From IMG/VR virus record IMGVR_UViG_3300048123_000029, positions 1-64,000 of that record: a stretch of 64,000 bases of DNA; one strand, 5' to 3'. The notes under the pieces are model-generated. The model was not told where the DNA came from, made no database searches, and saw only the letters and a list, made by a program, of their open reading frames with translations. Source of the stretch: a virus. Shown here piece by piece: positions 6,175-61,370 of this stretch (position 1 is its first letter; each line of letters opens with the position of its first letter). The position numbers were made by a program, and so were the translations under genes.

Positions 6175-7728
6175 ATGGAATTTAATAACCCTAGTGAGAT
6201 AGTTAAAACTCTCACATTTGGCAATGAAGCCAAAGAGCAAATTATGCAAGGCGTCGAAAAATTGTCAAACGCAGTAAAGAGCACGTTAGGTGCTTCTGGA
6301 AAATGCGTTATATATGAAGACGCTCTTGGAAAACCGGTAATAACAAAAGATGGTGTAACCGTTGCGGAAAGCGTAGTCTTATTACATCCGGTTGAGAACA
6401 TTGGCGCAACACTCATAAAAGAGGCGGCAAGCAATACGGTAAAAGAAGCCGGGGACGGTACAACAACATCAACTGTCCTCGCGCATTCTTTACTAAAAAC
6501 AGTTAATGAAAATTTAGATGAAGAAAAAGTTAGAGAGCTTAAAAGCGGCATTGCTACTGGTGCTGAAAAAGTTATGGTTTATCTTGATAAAACCAGTATT
6601 GAAATTAAAGGTGATATGCTTAAGCAAGTTGCTGGTATTTCATGCAACAACGACTCAGAGCTTGGAGATAAAATTGGACAAGCTTATGAAAAAGTTGGAA
6701 AAAATGGAGTTGTTCTAATGGAAGAATCCGATACAAATGAAACTTATGTTGAGTTTGTTGATGGAGTTCAATTTGATAGCGGTTTAAAATCACCGCATTT
6801 AGCTACAGATAAAAATAAGGGCTCAGCTACATTAGAAGACCCATATATACTTATAGTTTCTTCACCTATACCCAATATACGAAGAATACAAAATGTATTA
6901 GAGTTTGTAATTAAAAATAAGAAAAGTTTATTAATAGTTGCAGACGTAGAGCAGCAGCCGTATCAAACGTTATTAGCTAATAAAGTAAAAGGCAATATAA
7001 AAGTAAATATTGTTGACATACCAGGCTTTGGCCCAACTAAACAGCAGACGCTTGAAGACCTTGCTATATTAACTGGCGCTAACATAATAAACGAGGAGTT
7101 AGGGGACGATTTAGACCTCATAGACCCTGATGTATTAGGCAAAGCGTTTAAAGCTGTTACAGACGACAAAAACACTGTTCTGCAAGTAGCCGAAGCAAAT
7201 GAAGAGGTTGCATTAAGAATAATGGATGTTGAAAAGCAAATAAGCGAAGAGACTAATCCGTTTTTTAAGAAACAATTAGAGCAAAGGCTATCAATGCTTA
7301 CCGGTCAAGTTGGTATAGTTTATGTTGGAGCAGACTCTAAAGTTGAATTAAAAGAAAAGAAAGATCGTGTTGAAGATGCGATTTATGCGACGAAAGCCGC
7401 TTATAAAGAAGGTATAGTCCCGGGCGGGGGTGTAGCTTTGCTAAATGCTTCTACACTGATTAAGCCGAAAAATAAAGGTGAAGAGATATTGCTTGCTGCA
7501 ATAAGATCACCGTATGAGACTATATTAGAAAACGCTAATATGCAAGTAGTTTATCCTCAAATCAAAAACAGGGGTATAGACGTTAAAACAGGTAAAGATG
7601 TTAATATGATTAAAGCCGGTATTATAGATCCGGTGTTAGTTACTAAAACAGCTTTAAAGAACGCAGTAAGTGTTGTCAATACAATTATATCTGCCGATTG
7701 TATAATCAGTAATAAAAGATTAGCATGA
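6175..7728 (+). CDS. groEL: Phage-encoded chaperonin GroEL (Hsp60)
   Basis: 517 residues against about 548 for E. coli GroEL. Family landmarks are present in order: 'AVKSTLGASGKCVIYED' and 'ITKDGVTVA' near the N-terminus, the nucleotide site 'KEAGDGTTTSTVLA' with its Asp, the apical-domain phrase 'IPGFGP', and 'DRVEDAIYATKAA...EGIVPGGGVAL' with the catalytic Asp of the hydrolysis site. The Gly-Gly-Met tail of cellular GroEL is missing. Apical substrate/GroES-contact residues differ (the SPYF region reads SPHL). It is predicted to form ATP-driven folding rings, probably for capsid or tail proteins. GroES follows with a 4-base ATGA overlap. The A-rich leader lacks a Shine-Dalgarno box. Confidence 0.93.
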   Translation: MEFNNPSEIVKTLTFGNEAKEQIMQGVEKLSNAVKSTLGASGKCVIYEDALGKPVITKDGVTVAESVVLLHPVENIGATLIKEAASNTVKEAGDGTTTSTVLAHSLLKTVNENLDEEKVRELKSGIATGAEKVMVYLDKTSIEIKGDMLKQVAGISCNNDSELGDKIGQAYEKVGKNGVVLMEESDTNETYVEFVDGVQFDSGLKSPHLATDKNKGSATLEDPYILIVSSPIPNIRRIQNVLEFVIKNKKSLLIVADVEQQPYQTLLANKVKGNIKVNIVDIPGFGPTKQQTLEDLAILTGANIINEELGDDLDLIDPDVLGKAFKAVTDDKNTVLQVAEANEEVALRIMDVEKQISEETNPFFKKQLEQRLSMLTGQVGIVYVGADSKVELKEKKDRVEDAIYATKAAYKEGIVPGGGVALLNASTLIKPKNKGEEILLAAIRSPYETILENANMQVVYPQIKNRGIDVKTGKDVNMIKAGIIDPVLVTKTALKNAVSVVNTIISADCIISNKRLA

Positions 7729-41595: not shown

Positions 41596-41951
41596 TGATG
41601 AAGTATTTTAATTATTCAGAATTTGATAGCCCCGATGTGCAGGGCTCTGGGCAGATGATGGATAGGGATTTTTTACAAATACTAGATCAAGCGAGAGATC
41701 GCTTTGATAAACCTATTAATATAAATTCTGGGTATCGTACGCCGCAGCATAATGATTCTGTTGGTGGGACCGAGAAGTCTTCTCACCTAAAAGGTTTAGC
41801 TGCTGATATTGATTGTCGCAAATCAAAAGATAGATTTGAGCTTATTGATATATTCTTAGACTTAGGCATAAACAGGATCGGCATTGCAGATACTTTTATC
41901 CACATTGATGTCGACCCTGATAAATCACCTAACGTTATTTGGACGTACTAA
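41595..41951 (+). CDS. Peptidase M15 family endolysin
   Basis: 118 residues. 'ININSGYRTPQHNDSVGGTEKSSHLKGLAADIDC' holds the zinc-binding SxHxxGxAxD signature, and 'FIHIDVDP' gives the second HxD ligand pair. The family is D-Ala-D-Ala carboxypeptidase/endopeptidase-like (M15); phage members cut peptidoglycan cross-links at lysis. It is the last rightward gene before transcription converges, and its stop overlaps the stop of nrdA. Confidence 0.85.
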   Translation: MMKYFNYSEFDSPDVQGSGQMMDRDFLQILDQARDRFDKPININSGYRTPQHNDSVGGTEKSSHLKGLAADIDCRKSKDRFELIDIFLDLGINRIGIADTFIHIDVDPDKSPNVIWTY

Positions 41952-47492: not shown

Positions 47493-47748
47493 AATAGTAT
47501 TTACACATTTTATAGTATTCTGGCCAAATTGTTTTTCTACAATACTTGCTGGGTGACAAGTGTGGCTTTTCCCATTTTTTGTAAGGGCCTAAGCTAATTG
47601 CTATATGCCAATGCTCTGTATCGCCTTGTATGCCGTAAGGTGATATTCTTATATTGTTTTTAACACAAAAGCTATACCACTTAAACTCCTCTTCATTATA
47701 CGTATAACTTGGCATTGGTTTCACCCGTTTGCCATATAAACTTGGCAT
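47470..47748 (-). CDS. Conserved hypothetical protein
   Basis: 92 residues: 'YNEEEFKWYSFCVKNNIRISPYGIQGDTEHWHIAISLGPYKKWEKPHLSPSKYCRKTIWPEYYKMCKYYYEKY'. A Trp/Tyr/His-rich small family that I associate with phage nucleotide-metabolism loci; function unknown. It overlaps the primase-helicase stop by one base and the TS-family start by 23 bases. A second Met (MPSYTYNEE) is an alternative start. Confidence 0.65.
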   Translation of the reverse strand: MPSLYGKRVKPMPSYTYNEEEFKWYSFCVKNNIRISPYGIQGDTEHWHIAISLGPYKKWEKPHLSPSKYCRKTIWPEYYKMCKYYYEKYNNK

Positions 47749-49469
47749 TATTCCCAGGGCATTTTCTCGCCAGCAAGATTAACTTGCTCGTGAGGAATAA
47801 AACAACCAGACTTTGGTTCCCATTTAAAATGAGCTTCAGCTCCATTCTCGCCTAAGTTTTGAAACTTAACTTTAAGTACTTTAGCCTTAACAGTTTTAGC
47901 TTCATAATCTCTGTGAACTAATAACCCATGATAACTAGCATCGTACCATTCACCACCACCTTTAATATTATACATTGACGGCTCTTCAATTTTACCATTG
48001 CCATCTTTGTACATCTTAGTTGGGTGTGCTACAATAAAAACTAGCACATCATACTTCTTAGCAAAGATTTCAATCTTAGTTAAGTATTCCATAGTATAAC
48101 GATTAACGTCTTCTGTTTTACAATCAACGTCTCTAACCTTATTATATGGATCTATAACTAAACATTTAATACCTTTACGTTTAACAAGCTCAGCTCCTTT
48201 CTTTAATACAGATTCTAACGTGTAGCGTTCCATATCTATATGAAAGTAATTAGTGTTACAATGATCCGCTACTTGATTCCATCGATCAGTACCAATATCA
48301 TCTCTACTCGGCATGCCTTGCCAAGTTTTACGCATTAGCTTATGAGCGTGTAAATATGTTGGAACATTTTCTGGCGAAGCGAATGCCGTTTTCCAACCGT
48401 AATTAGCGTTATACCCAACAACCATTTGGTCGACAAAGTCACTCTTCCCGGAACTAGGGATACCAGTGACAGTAATAAATTGACCAGTGTAAGTTGAGAA
48501 TATGTCGTCAAAATTTTGTAAGCCAATTTGGAATCCTGGTTTAAAGCCATTACGAACAAAGTCGGTAACTTCGTCTTCAATATCCCTGAACGTTGTAACA
48601 TTCTCCAGCGGTACTGGCTTGCTTCGCGAAATACGCTCTGCCAATTTTTCTTTTCCATGCTTTATTAAATATTCGTTAGCGTCTTTGCAATCATCAAATG
48701 TCGCTATATAACATACCTCAGAGCCTAATCTACGTATTAACTCTGTTTGCAAGGCTTGACCAGCTTCGTCTGAATCTACGGCCAATATAACCTTCTCTTT
48801 GTCTTCGAAATAATCTATACAATTGTCTAAGTAATCTAAGTTGTTAGTATTAAGTGTTGCACCATTAGGAACAGATATTGCATTTGTTATACCAGCTTCA
48901 TGCAACGCCAAGACGTCCATTTCACCTTCAACAATAATACAATATTCCCACCCTACAATGCTATCTATATTGTAGAATACTTTTTCAGCACCCTTATATA
49001 ATTTAAAGTTCTTTCTTCCATCACGGTATTTAACATTAGTTAATTCGCCGCCCATAAAATAATTGAACTTTATTACATTCTCGGATTTACCGGTCTGAGG
49101 CATATATTCAGGACCCTCCTCAATCTTTAGATCGAAGAGAGTTTCCTGAGATATACCACGAGTTTTAAACCATTCAATTACTTTATCACTTACAAATTCA
49201 GGCTTATCTGGATCTGTTTTAACTTCAGGCTTTACATATATTTTTTCAGCTTTGCCTTTACGTTGATAAGTATGCAGTTGAAATGATTTATTACAATTAT
49301 GACAAGTACCGAGACCCCGTTCCCAATCGTAAGAAGCGCATTTTGCTTTTTGATTCTTGGGTTTTCTATCGTGGGAACACACAGGGCATATACCCTGTGC
49401 TTTACCCTCTTCAAGCTTATGTATATTGAACTCGTCAATAACAAATCCATTGATCTCTGTTGTCTGCAT
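47748..49469 (-). CDS. T7 gp4-type primase-helicase
   Basis: 573 residues. The zinc-binding part has 'GICPVCSHD' and 'GTCHNCNKS'. TOPRIM residues follow ('IIVEGEMDVLALHEAG' and 'AVDSDEAGQAL'). The RecA-like helicase has Walker A 'TGIPSSGKSDF', Walker B 'CLVIDPYN' and 'FIVAHPTKM'. It unwinds and primes at the fork. No DNA polymerase is encoded in this window, so it presumably works with a host or off-window polymerase. It is followed by SSB upstream on the same strand. Confidence 0.93.
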   Translation of the reverse strand: MQTTEINGFVIDEFNIHKLEEGKAQGICPVCSHDRKPKNQKAKCASYDWERGLGTCHNCNKSFQLHTYQRKGKAEKIYVKPEVKTDPDKPEFVSDKVIEWFKTRGISQETLFDLKIEEGPEYMPQTGKSENVIKFNYFMGGELTNVKYRDGRKNFKLYKGAEKVFYNIDSIVGWEYCIIVEGEMDVLALHEAGITNAISVPNGATLNTNNLDYLDNCIDYFEDKEKVILAVDSDEAGQALQTELIRRLGSEVCYIATFDDCKDANEYLIKHGKEKLAERISRSKPVPLENVTTFRDIEDEVTDFVRNGFKPGFQIGLQNFDDIFSTYTGQFITVTGIPSSGKSDFVDQMVVGYNANYGWKTAFASPENVPTYLHAHKLMRKTWQGMPSRDDIGTDRWNQVADHCNTNYFHIDMERYTLESVLKKGAELVKRKGIKCLVIDPYNKVRDVDCKTEDVNRYTMEYLTKIEIFAKKYDVLVFIVAHPTKMYKDGNGKIEEPSMYNIKGGGEWYDASYHGLLVHRDYEAKTVKAKVLKVKFQNLGENGAEAHFKWEPKSGCFIPHEQVNLAGEKMPWE

Positions 49470-51462: not shown

Positions 51463-52215
51463 TTACAGATAATCAATCACTTGGTTTGCGTCAGTGTTAG
51501 CGATAAGTTTATTTATAGCTTCTCTTTTTATCTGTGAAACACGTACATTTGCAGTGTTTACATTTATATTTAATTTGCCTGCTATATAATTAGCAGAGTG
51601 CTTGTCACAATCCAAACCGTATGATAATCTCAATACTTCATATTCAATACCTGTTAAGTGTTGTTTCATTAAACTTAACAAATAAGCATTGAGTAAATTT
51701 ATATTGTATGGTTCAGAATTATCTGGTATTTGAAACAATGGATTTTCCTCTTCTGTATTATAATTTACATCTATACTAGAAAATATAGAATTAAAAAACA
51801 TTGTAACAATTTTTTCATCTTTAGGATTCTTACGTATTTCAGTTAGCTTATGTTCTGGTATGCGTATGTCACCCCGGTTAATATCAATCGCACGTCTTAT
51901 AGCTCCTTTAATTCTTTTACTAAAGAAACTTTTTAAAGTTTTTTCAATATCTTCAGAGTCAATAAGCTTATCCCATTCTAACTTATCTACCGCAAGAGTT
52001 AAACCTTTGCTACCTTCTTGTATTAAATCGTTAATACTTAGTACTCCGGATGCTTGTTCTGATGTAGCGAACTTGCGCGCTAGATTCTCAACAAGCGGTA
52101 AAAATTTTACAATTAACTCATCTCTTGTGTAGTAATCATAAAACTTATCTTCAGGCATAGACCGTTTAAGATCTTCCTTATACCTTATATAGTTTTGTAC
52201 ATTGTACTTTTTCAT
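51463..52215 (-). CDS. Phage sigma-70-family factor
   Basis: 250 residues. Region 2 is recognisable in 'LVENLARKFA...LSINDLIQEGSKGLTLAVDKL...FFSKRIKGAIRRAIDINRGDIRIPEHKLTEIRK'; region 4 in 'LTGIEYEVLRLSYGLDCDKHSANYIAGKLNINVNTANVRVSQIKREAINKL' (an HTH). It would direct host RNA polymerase to phage promoters, of which the eight-copy element at 55-61 kb is the prime candidate. The overlap with the next HTH gene is ATGA-like (four bases). Confidence 0.82.
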   Translation of the reverse strand: MKKYNVQNYIRYKEDLKRSMPEDKFYDYYTRDELIVKFLPLVENLARKFATSEQASGVLSINDLIQEGSKGLTLAVDKLEWDKLIDSEDIEKTLKSFFSKRIKGAIRRAIDINRGDIRIPEHKLTEIRKNPKDEKIVTMFFNSIFSSIDVNYNTEEENPLFQIPDNSEPYNINLLNAYLLSLMKQHLTGIEYEVLRLSYGLDCDKHSANYIAGKLNINVNTANVRVSQIKREAINKLIANTDANQVIDYL

Positions 52216-52832
52216 AGTTGTTGATTAAGTAATTCTTTTTCTTTTTTAAGTTCGTTACTCATATTACGATATATAGTTCTTGTTGAACATTTAAGTGCGT
52301 CAGCAAGCCTTGCAACCGTTATTTTAATTTGGCTATCATTTATAAGTAGCATCGCATCGTATATTTCGCTTTCAGATATTTTAGATCTACCGACTAGCTT
52401 ACCTACTATAGATAGCTTTTGTCGCATATCTAAACCCGTGAAGTCTTTGAATATAACTTTACGTAATTTATTAGGTGGAGGTGTATCTAATTCCATCAAA
52501 GAAACATCATATATCATGCTTTCCCTAAGTTGATCTGAAACATTAAATGTTACAAACCCTGTACGCTTATTACATATGTATTTAACAAGCCCTGCAAAAG
52601 CTTCTTGATCCAGTTGAGGATTAAGATACCATAACACATACAAATGCCATTTGAGGCTCTTATATGTGTTTATTTTAGCCCGTGAGTTAAAGAGTGTATA
52701 GCATTGATGTGTACCACTTTCGTAATACCAGCCCCACTCGAACGTTTCTGTAGGTTCGTCTGACCACGGAAAACATCTATATATAATACGATGCTGGTTT
52801 AGGTATTTGGTATTTCGGTCGTAGTATGACAT
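52212..52832 (-). CDS. HTH-domain protein
   Basis: 206 residues. An N-terminal aromatic-rich domain (WGWYYESGTHQCYTLFNSR) and 'SLKWHLYVLWYLNP' are followed by a C-terminal helix-turn-helix 'ITVARLADALKCSTRTIYRNMSNELKKEKELL'. It overlaps the sigma gene and starts beside a copy of the 44-bp inverted-repeat element. It may be a regulator or a replication-initiation protein. Family not identified. Confidence 0.65.
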   Translation of the reverse strand: MSYYDRNTKYLNQHRIIYRCFPWSDEPTETFEWGWYYESGTHQCYTLFNSRAKINTYKSLKWHLYVLWYLNPQLDQEAFAGLVKYICNKRTGFVTFNVSDQLRESMIYDVSLMELDTPPPNKLRKVIFKDFTGLDMRQKLSIVGKLVGRSKISESEIYDAMLLINDSQIKITVARLADALKCSTRTIYRNMSNELKKEKELLNQQL

Positions 52833-52870
52833 TAGGTTCTTACTATTAATTATATATTAGCTATCGTCGC
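52827..52870. promoter_or_regulatory. 44-bp inverted-repeat element, copy 1 (class B)
   Basis: TGACATTAGG at 52827-52836 and CTATCGTCGC at 52861-52870 bracket an AT-rich core (TATATAT). The right end read on the opposite strand (GCGACGATAG) resembles the left end (TGACATTAG). It overlaps the start codon of the HTH gene. Spacing is identical to copy 2. Confidence 0.65.
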
Positions 52871-52871
52871 G

Positions 52872-53093
52872 CTAGTAGATTAAAATCTTTAATCTTCTGT
52901 TGTACTTCTTTAAAAGCTTTGCTTTATTTTCTATGTTGCCGCCAAAAATAGTTATGTTTTTATTAAAACTATATTCGCTTTGAAAAGCTGCTTTTACTAT
53001 CTCGTTATGCAAGATCGATATTCTATTTTCTAGAAACCTTACGTGTTCCGCTTTTCTTCGTTGCCTTTTTAATTTTTGTATTAATGTTCGCAT
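52872..53093 (-). CDS. Small coiled-coil protein
   Basis: 73 residues: basic helical start 'RTLIQKLKRQRRKAEHVRFLENRISILHNEIVKAAF' and a second helical end 'NIENKAKLLKKYNRRLKILIY'. It overlaps the upstream gene by 13 bases. Function unknown. Confidence 0.6.
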   Translation of the reverse strand: MRTLIQKLKRQRRKAEHVRFLENRISILHNEIVKAAFQSEYSFNKNITIFGGNIENKAKLLKKYNRRLKILIY

Positions 53094-59804: not shown

Positions 59805-60071
59805 GTATATAATTTGTTTATTAGTTAAAATAGTATTACAGGTATTGTACTCTACCTCTAAGTACCTAGAAAATTATTTACCCAAATAGTGTGACAATAG
59901 GGTGTTAAGTATATATAATAAGAAGCTATCGTCGCATACCGATCGATTGAATAAGTTATAGGTGGTTGCTATACACATCAGTTACGATGCATACCTGCGA
60001 TCTGTTCAACGTTATTTATACTGGTGATGCACACATCTCAACGCGCCAGTCCCGTTAGGGTTTGAACTAGA
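59805..60071. other. Intergenic region holding class B element and no gene
   Basis: 267 bases without a supported gene. It contains class B copy 2, the related words GATGCATAC (59979-59987) and GATGCACAC (60025-60033), and a CCCGTTAGGG hairpin-like palindrome (60050-60059) just downstream of the stop of the next gene, possibly part of a terminator for leftward transcription. The rest is AT-rich with no clear feature. Confidence 0.55.
59892..59935. promoter_or_regulatory. 44-bp inverted-repeat element, copy 2 (class B)
   Basis: TGACAATAGG (59892-59901) and CTATCGTCGC (59926-59935) bracket TATATATAATA. Rightward, GTGACA and TATAAT sit 17 bases apart, a sigma-70-like geometry; the right end reads GCGACGATAG on the other strand, an imperfect inverted copy of GTGACAATAG. 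Either a bidirectional promoter or paired operator sites. Confidence 0.65.
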
Positions 60072-60386
60072 TTACTTTACTTCGTCTAGTTCAATTCTTT
60101 CGATTACATTAGTTCGAACATTCGAAGGCATATCGGTACTTTGAGACCAGTAACCTCTTTTAATCCAGCAAGGCATAATGTTTAGTTTAGGTAACATTAC
60201 TTTAAGAACCTCATCGTGATTGTAAGTAATCTTTTGATTTTTGTTATTTACAAAGGTAATGATTTGGTTTCTACCGTACCAAGATTTACGGACTACGAAG
60301 TTTTTACGTTCGATCGGTGGGAAGATTTCATTTAGTTCTTCTTTAGATAGTTTTGAAATTACTTCAGTTAATTTAGAATTTGACAT
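60072..60386 (-). CDS. Hypothetical protein
   Basis: 104 residues: 'SKLTEVISKLSKEELNEIFPPIERKNFVVRKSWYGRNQIITFVNNKNQKITYNHDEVLKVMLPKLNIMPCW'. A helical start, beta middle, Trp-rich end. No family recognised. It lies downstream of class A copy 7. Confidence 0.6.
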   Translation of the reverse strand: MSNSKLTEVISKLSKEELNEIFPPIERKNFVVRKSWYGRNQIITFVNNKNQKITYNHDEVLKVMLPKLNIMPCWIKRGYWSQSTDMPSNVRTNVIERIELDEVK

Positions 60387-60759: not shown

Positions 60760-60780
60760 AGTTATTATTTTTTGTATTCA

Positions 60781-60820
60781 TATATATTATCGTTAACCGA
60801 TCGTGCTAAGTCTGTAAATG
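60781..60820 (-). promoter_or_regulatory. Promoter-like 40-bp element, class A copy 8 (divergence point)
   Basis: Minus strand: TTACAGA, AGCACGA, CGATAATATA; the most diverged copy. It is the furthest upstream and marks the beginning of the leftward module. Confidence 0.72.
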
Positions 60821-60965
60821 CTATACATGGATCCTGTATCCTGTGCCTGGGAAAGCCCGAACCCTGGTCGAGATCCCGCGAGCTGTGGCGCCTGGGACCT
60901 GGCAGCTGATCCTGGGAACGTGATCCTGAAACCTGGAAACGATATGGGGGCTGGCAAAAAGAAAC
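60821..60965. repeat. GC-rich island with repeated CCTGG/GATCCTG words
   Basis: About 145 bases, much richer in G+C than the surrounding AT-rich genome. The tetramer CCTG occurs about nine times in ~125 bases on the plus strand, six of them as CCTGG (a CCWGG site) and three as GATCCTG, all the same orientation. A plus-strand reading from 60818 (77 codons) covers it but its product looks non-coding. It lies in the divergent gap between the leftward and rightward modules, a usual place for an origin, a packaging site or a structured RNA. Confidence 0.6.
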
Positions 60966-61127
60966 GGGTTTTACTTACGCTGGTGTACAGTGTATATGTA
61001 GTAGCAACCCATTACTTCCCTATATCTAACTATTTTTTAAATATAATGTGACACTAGGTAGTTATATATAATAGTAGCAGGCAACTGTCGCATTAAGTAC
61101 TCCGAAAACAGCGTAATCATACACAGT
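60966..61127. other. Divergent intergenic region, right part
   Basis: 162 bases between the GC-rich island and the small basic gene. It contains class B copy 3 (61049-61091) and AT-rich runs (TTTTTTAAATATAAT). No gene recognised. Rightward transcription of the small basic gene and the giant fibre probably begins here. Confidence 0.5.
61049..61091. promoter_or_regulatory. Inverted-repeat element, copy 3 (class B)
   Basis: TGACACTAGG (61049-61058) and CAACTGTCGC (61082-61091) bracket TATATATAATA, total 43 bases (copies 1 and 2 are 44). It lies 36 bases before the first rightward start, so it is the likely promoter or operator for the rightward transcript. Confidence 0.6.
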
Positions 61128-61370
61128 ATGACACAAAAACTATCTCCGGCAGCAAGAAGAGCTAAGCGTGCACGGGACAAAGCATACGCTATGACACCTG
61201 ATCGGAGAAGGAAAAAAGCACATTCCCAGCGAGAGCGCAGGAAAAAGCCCTGCCCTGACGGTTATGACTACGATCACAAGAGACAAAAGTGCGTATCAAT
61301 AGCATCCAATAGAGGAAACGAGGGTGAGGGAACTAAAAAAGAAAGTGGTAACGACTACAACACAAACTAA
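61128..61370 (+). CDS. Small basic protein
   Basis: 80 residues, Arg/Lys-rich: 'KLSPAARRAKRARDKAYAMTPDRRRKKAHSQRERRKKPCPDGYDYDHKRQKCVS', then an acidic/Asn tail. The pattern CPDGYDYDHKRQKC is also seen in other small basic virus proteins. It resembles the other small basic Cys proteins at 9777 and 41138 in composition. It may be packaged or bind DNA. Two bases separate it from the giant fibre gene. Confidence 0.65.
   Translation: MTQKLSPAARRAKRARDKAYAMTPDRRRKKAHSQRERRKKPCPDGYDYDHKRQKCVSIASNRGNEGEGTKKESGNDYNTN

Follow-up and report, generated by a model that had tools for sequence, protein, structure and literature searches.

A marine bacterial virus carries, where its early and late gene modules diverge, a conserved non-coding module that, judged from comparison of related sequences, overlaps a GC-rich repeat island and extends past position 60965 to about 61032. 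This module would be a cis-acting DNA element, tentatively read here as the replication origin of the phage, the likeliest of the functions considered. It comprises three parts, termed block 2, the core and the TA box, with near-fixed spacing among related phages (Table 1). The earlier note on this DNA had drawn attention to the CCTGG repeats of the island and had listed an origin, a packaging site and a structured RNA as possible functions. The origin is retained as the best fit of these readings, while the emphasis on CCTGG was misplaced, given that the word is lineage-specific and the conserved motif set lies beside it.

Table 1. Features of the island, the conserved module and their flanks, in window coordinates.
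Feature	Position	Strand	Basis
Class A, promoter-like element for the outermost gene read leftward (early), TTTACAnA-N4-AnnACGA-N7-CGATAATATA	60779..60817	-	recurrence upstream of starts
TGCTATAC motif, left edge of the spacer	60819..60826	+	enrichment in the window; same place in relatives
GC-rich repeated-word spacer (CCTG/CCTGG/GATCCTG)	60829..60945	+	word repetition compared with shuffles; words of relatives
Block 2, GGGAAAGCCCGAACCCTG (consensus GGAAAAGGCAAAACATTT)	60849..60866	+	best-match placement; weak in the window (11/18)
Core, GGGGGCTGGnnAAAnnAAAnnnnTTT, G-run/A-tract	60946..60971	+	conserved columns in 46 lineages; pattern scans
TA box, AACCC-n-TTACTTCnnTATATCTAAC	61006..61032	+	59-61 bp from start of core (45 lineages)
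A/T tract from TA box to class B, candidate for unwinding	61031..61047	+	T-run conserved; function inferred
Class B, palindrome GTGACACTAGG...CAACTGTCGC around TATATATAATA, before the first rightward gene	61048..61091	+	
First rightward ORF, 80 aa, marker for finding relatives	61128..61370	+	

The stretch analysed (the window) covers positions 1-64000 of a 64,883-base record that has no terminal repeats. Its terminase and portal are of the Pervagoviridae/Elemovirus kind, and the encoded proteins include GroEL, a primase-helicase (47748-49469), a ligase, an Erf-type recombinase, a sigma factor and ribonucleotide reductase. No DNA polymerase was recognised among the phage proteins searched, no single-subunit RNA polymerase was recognised in the phage, and no replication initiator was recognised within the window. 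Named relatives are the Flavobacterium elemo phages, Cellulophaga phages phi38:1 and Calle, Maribacter phage Panino, and MW202828; the GroEL-type chaperonin gene (6175-7728) has counterparts in phi38:1, elemo, Panino and MW202828.

The island is as GC-rich and repetitive as the earlier note had stated. Between 60821 and 60965, CCTG occurs nine times (dinucleotide-shuffle mean 3.1), CCTGG six times (mean 1.1) and GATCCTG three times (p<=0.0002 for each), all in one orientation and with irregular spacing of CCTG. GC content is 0.572, compared with 0.369 on average for the genome, whose richest 145-bp window begins at 60839. CCTGG is not enriched genome-wide (50 observed, 46.6 expected), which makes the cluster a local one. 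The placement given earlier, next to class A and class B at the module divergence, also holds: the island lies between a minus-strand class A site and the class B palindrome. Class A has eight minus-strand instances in the window, nearly all directly 5′ of minus-strand starts. TGCTATAC occurs 11 times in the window against 2.95 expected, and many relatives carry one to three copies at the same place. A second class B palindrome, at 59891, has a TA-box-like sequence before it and is followed by TGCTATAC (59967) and by non-coding sequence that is conserved (59846-60072 in all); relatives carry TGCTATAC at this second site up to three times in tandem.

Close relatives keep the island and its CCTG repeats, so the argument against the island that the earlier note would have drawn from their absence does not arise. 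In distant relatives CCTG is swapped for ACAGG, ACCAG, CTGGTC, GACCT and other words, a few spacers are AT-rich, and in MW202828 another GC-rich word set adjoins the module. Because distant relatives use other repeated words or AT-rich sequence, the CCTG/CCTGG repeats are, on sequence comparison, best described as lineage-specific, fast-evolving filler. Repetition as such is common: it exceeds dinucleotide shuffles in 78% of lineages compared with 14% of control windows. GC-richness as a conserved trait was ruled out by low GC in lineages L064, L101 and L074, and strand asymmetry of the spacer is likewise not general among lineages.

The conserved geometry emerged from relatives found with an early 104-aa ORF (80 loci) and the late 80-aa ORF (43 loci), in collections that may omit records very near the window. 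Anchored alignments covered 46 lineages less than 75% identical, which are related to each other, so that counts of lineages are not counts of independent events. The distance from core to TA box is 60 bp in 30 lineages, 61 bp in 11 and 59 bp in four; one further lineage has 97 bp in a search range of 35-100 bp and is absent from the narrower search (50-75 bp). Block 2 was searched for at 25-125 bp; in the 20 lineages where it reaches 13 or more of 18, it lies 40/41 or 104/105 bp left of the core, whereas the copy in the window scores 11 of 18 and lies at 97 bp. Best-match placement of box and block 2 within such ranges favours similar distances, and the peaks at 60, 40/41 and 104/105 bp are narrower than this bias explains. 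Columns 60975-60993, between core and box, carry almost no information, while the T-run columns 61035-61039 are conserved across lineages. The distances from class A to the core (69-401 bp) and from the box to class B (21-195 bp) float among lineages.

In each of 137 fetched loci the module profile had one listed match, always on the late-gene strand, and the core has one convincing match per whole record. A core-pattern scan returned 31 stretches, nearly all from this phage family and at the same place, and among 84,980 cellular genomes the pattern gave scattered matches at chance level only. Profile and pattern scans were built on the module and are therefore blind to relatives that have lost it. 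In one contig (L140) the module is cut just past the core region and joined to coding sequence, through either deletion or misassembly. Among lineages L097, L099, L102, L110 and L128, several carry a hairpin, ATTCCTTCGGAAT, by an A-run between the TA box and class B; read leftward, it would resemble an intrinsic terminator placed between the module and class B.

A weight matrix for block 2 and core (gap 39-43) was run on the named relatives and compared with shuffles. In the cultured Cellulophaga phage phi38:1, whose module lies at 34.2-34.5 kb, it picked the module divergence with a score of 31.9 (shuffle maximum 18.5), and in MW202828 it did the same with a score of 20.0 (shuffle maximum 14.0). 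In elemoF the divergence was the top match, yet within the shuffle range (12.7; shuffle maximum 17.9), and Panino gave no convincing match. MW202828 has a box at exactly 60 bp from the core; in phi38:1 no clear box was found at the expected place. Conservation of the module between phi38:1 and Calle_1, a pair within one genus, is no greater than that of its flanks, so the claim of conservation rests on the deeper comparison. This result and those for elemoF and Panino weigh against the proposed origin.

A coding function had been judged unlikely in the earlier note, and the relatives bear this out. All three frames contain stops in relatives, one of them very close, and variable columns fall evenly by codon position (18/15/17), without the conserved open frame and third-position variation of a protein-coding gene. 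ORF 60818-61051 was rejected as a gene on the same grounds, being interrupted by a stop in L003, a very close relative, and showing no codon-position bias, as were two further frames that are open in some lineages and carry stops in others.

The structured RNA proposed earlier found no such backing. A non-coding RNA spanning the island on the late strand would account for the fixed orientation and for conserved motifs of single-strand-like character, and the class A copies at the island carry TAnnTnTG on the plus strand in 54% of cases compared with 17% of other copies. Such an RNA is nevertheless improbable: mean folding z is about 0 on both strands (-0.20 and +0.22; -1.09 for the window alone), so stability does not exceed that of shuffles, an Rfam search gave no match, and RNAalifold by groups did not support a structured RNA. 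Own pairing was no better than cross pairing in any test (block 2 with core in two versions, TGCTATAC with the 3′ arm, mid with the 3′ arm, and the core-to-box arms). An unbiased covariation scan stayed at its null, with a score of 2.69 for the best helix where column permutation gave a mean of 2.68 and non-complementary controls a mean of 3.53, and thus no covarying base pairs were found. A helix between block 2 and core drawn by eye (AAAGCCCG/CGGGUUUU) had looked covariation-like and failed the cross test. Moreover, the G-run is a C-run on the same late strand in phi38:1 and elemoF, which speaks for a property of double-stranded DNA.

Near-fixed spacing without conservation of intervening sequence or pairing points to a protein assembly on DNA, and among such sites a replication origin is the likeliest, given that the module occurs once, sits where the gene modules diverge, and has an A/T tract and repeats beside it. 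Block 2, the core and the TA box would be bound by a phage or host complex as one nucleoprotein assembly, which would explain why their spacing is fixed. Melting may then occur in the A/T tract next to the TA box, and the phage primase-helicase could be loaded together with host DNA polymerase, the latter proposed because no phage enzyme of this kind turned up among the proteins searched. Transcription diverging from class A and class B might help opening or priming. As a single conserved intergenic cis site with an adjoining AT-rich region (a candidate for unwinding), the module has what is expected of a phage origin; no DnaA-like box or regular iterons occur at the site, and recognisable initiator sites are missing there. 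Iterons or DnaA boxes are present in many origins, not all, and other initiator types are possible. Cumulative skew, proposed earlier as a check, backs an origin weakly: the AT-skew minimum falls at 61038 and a broad GC-skew minimum (59.5-64.9 kb) spans the island, both coinciding with the gene-strand switch, so that skew cannot separate replication from transcription. The sole exact TTATCCACA (the DnaA-box consensus) among the matches listed lies elsewhere, at the module convergence (41896-41904), 15 bases from the GC-skew maximum (41881), which may be chance. No description of a replication origin in this phage group was found in the literature searched, which contained few subscription papers. 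More doubtful is the broader proposal that the module represents a tripartite origin type found family-wide in Bacteroidota podoviruses, with block 2, a G/C-run core and a TA box at set spacing in a putative nucleoprotein complex and, beside it, a hypervariable arm of repeated words that differ by lineage.

The main rival of an origin is a control region for late promoters, owing to the TA-box look-alike and to a match with the -7 consensus in some lineages. Here the TA box would be a rightward promoter of late or middle genes, the G-run core an activator site in helical phase, and class B an operator for a helix-turn-helix (HTH) protein. We consider this rather unlikely, although several observations suit it. 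The near-fixed 60-bp spacing resembles activator-promoter phasing; the box reads TATATTTG in several lineages, matching the flavobacterial -7 consensus TAnnTTTG; and the look-alike upstream of the second class B palindrome (near 59846-59891) counts against an origin and fits promoter function. Furthermore, a class B palindrome lies at the start of the gene for the HTH protein itself (52212-52832), which is a candidate autoregulator and late switch; within this region (52212-52875) the palindrome lies at 52827, and a sigma-factor gene (51463-52215) adjoins. Against promoter control, the core is single-copy and other class B sites lack it, the separate set distance of block 2 is left unexplained, and no clear -33 box was found. 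The lack of a set distance between box and class B also argues against it, which is not decisive if the box itself is the promoter.

Two further readings were considered. The packaging site suggested earlier could be a pac or cos site or a genome terminus; the island adjoins early genes, as in T7-like phages, and many metagenome contigs end near it. These ends lie almost exclusively on the early side, where they scatter over 0-3 kb (within about 6 kb of the island, 26 early-side versus 3 late-side ends among 42 late-marker contigs), which suggests a hypervariable early region in relatives. The scatter gives no sign of a fixed terminus at the island; a pac site is kept as a rival, and with the large terminase gene 12.4 kb away and no terminal repeat in the record, packaging at the island has a low probability. 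Least probable is that a recombinase or partition protein acts at the module. Such a site would be consistent with the modular motifs and their set spacing, and phi38:1 encodes a serine recombinase while an integrase is annotated in Panino, but no recombinase was recognised among the searched proteins of this phage and the module is not a pair of inverted half-sites.

Since this single-copy element of near-fixed geometry can be recognised in the cultured phi38:1, a replication start or an early/late switch can be tested in a laboratory phage. The geometry can also serve as a marker for locating the module divergence in metagenomic phage genomes.

Phage replication origins such as lambda ori combine an initiator-binding region with an AT-rich unwinding element. 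Like these, the module is a single intergenic site with protein-site-like motifs at set spacing, an A/T tract and repeats beside it; unlike them, it lacks regular iterons and a recognised initiator gene, has a distinctive G-run/A-tract core, and adjoins a repeated word that changes between lineages. At the left end and primary origin of T7-type phages, short same-orientation repeats occur and the origin adjoins early promoters. The module shares such repeats, the proximity to early promoters and a T7-type primase-helicase, whereas no fixed terminus is seen, no single-subunit RNA polymerase was recognised, and the repeats are not conserved. In activator-dependent bacterial and phage promoters, an upstream site lies in near-fixed phase with a TA-rich box, as the core does with the TA box; in the module, by contrast, the distance to class B floats and a third block stands at its own set distance.
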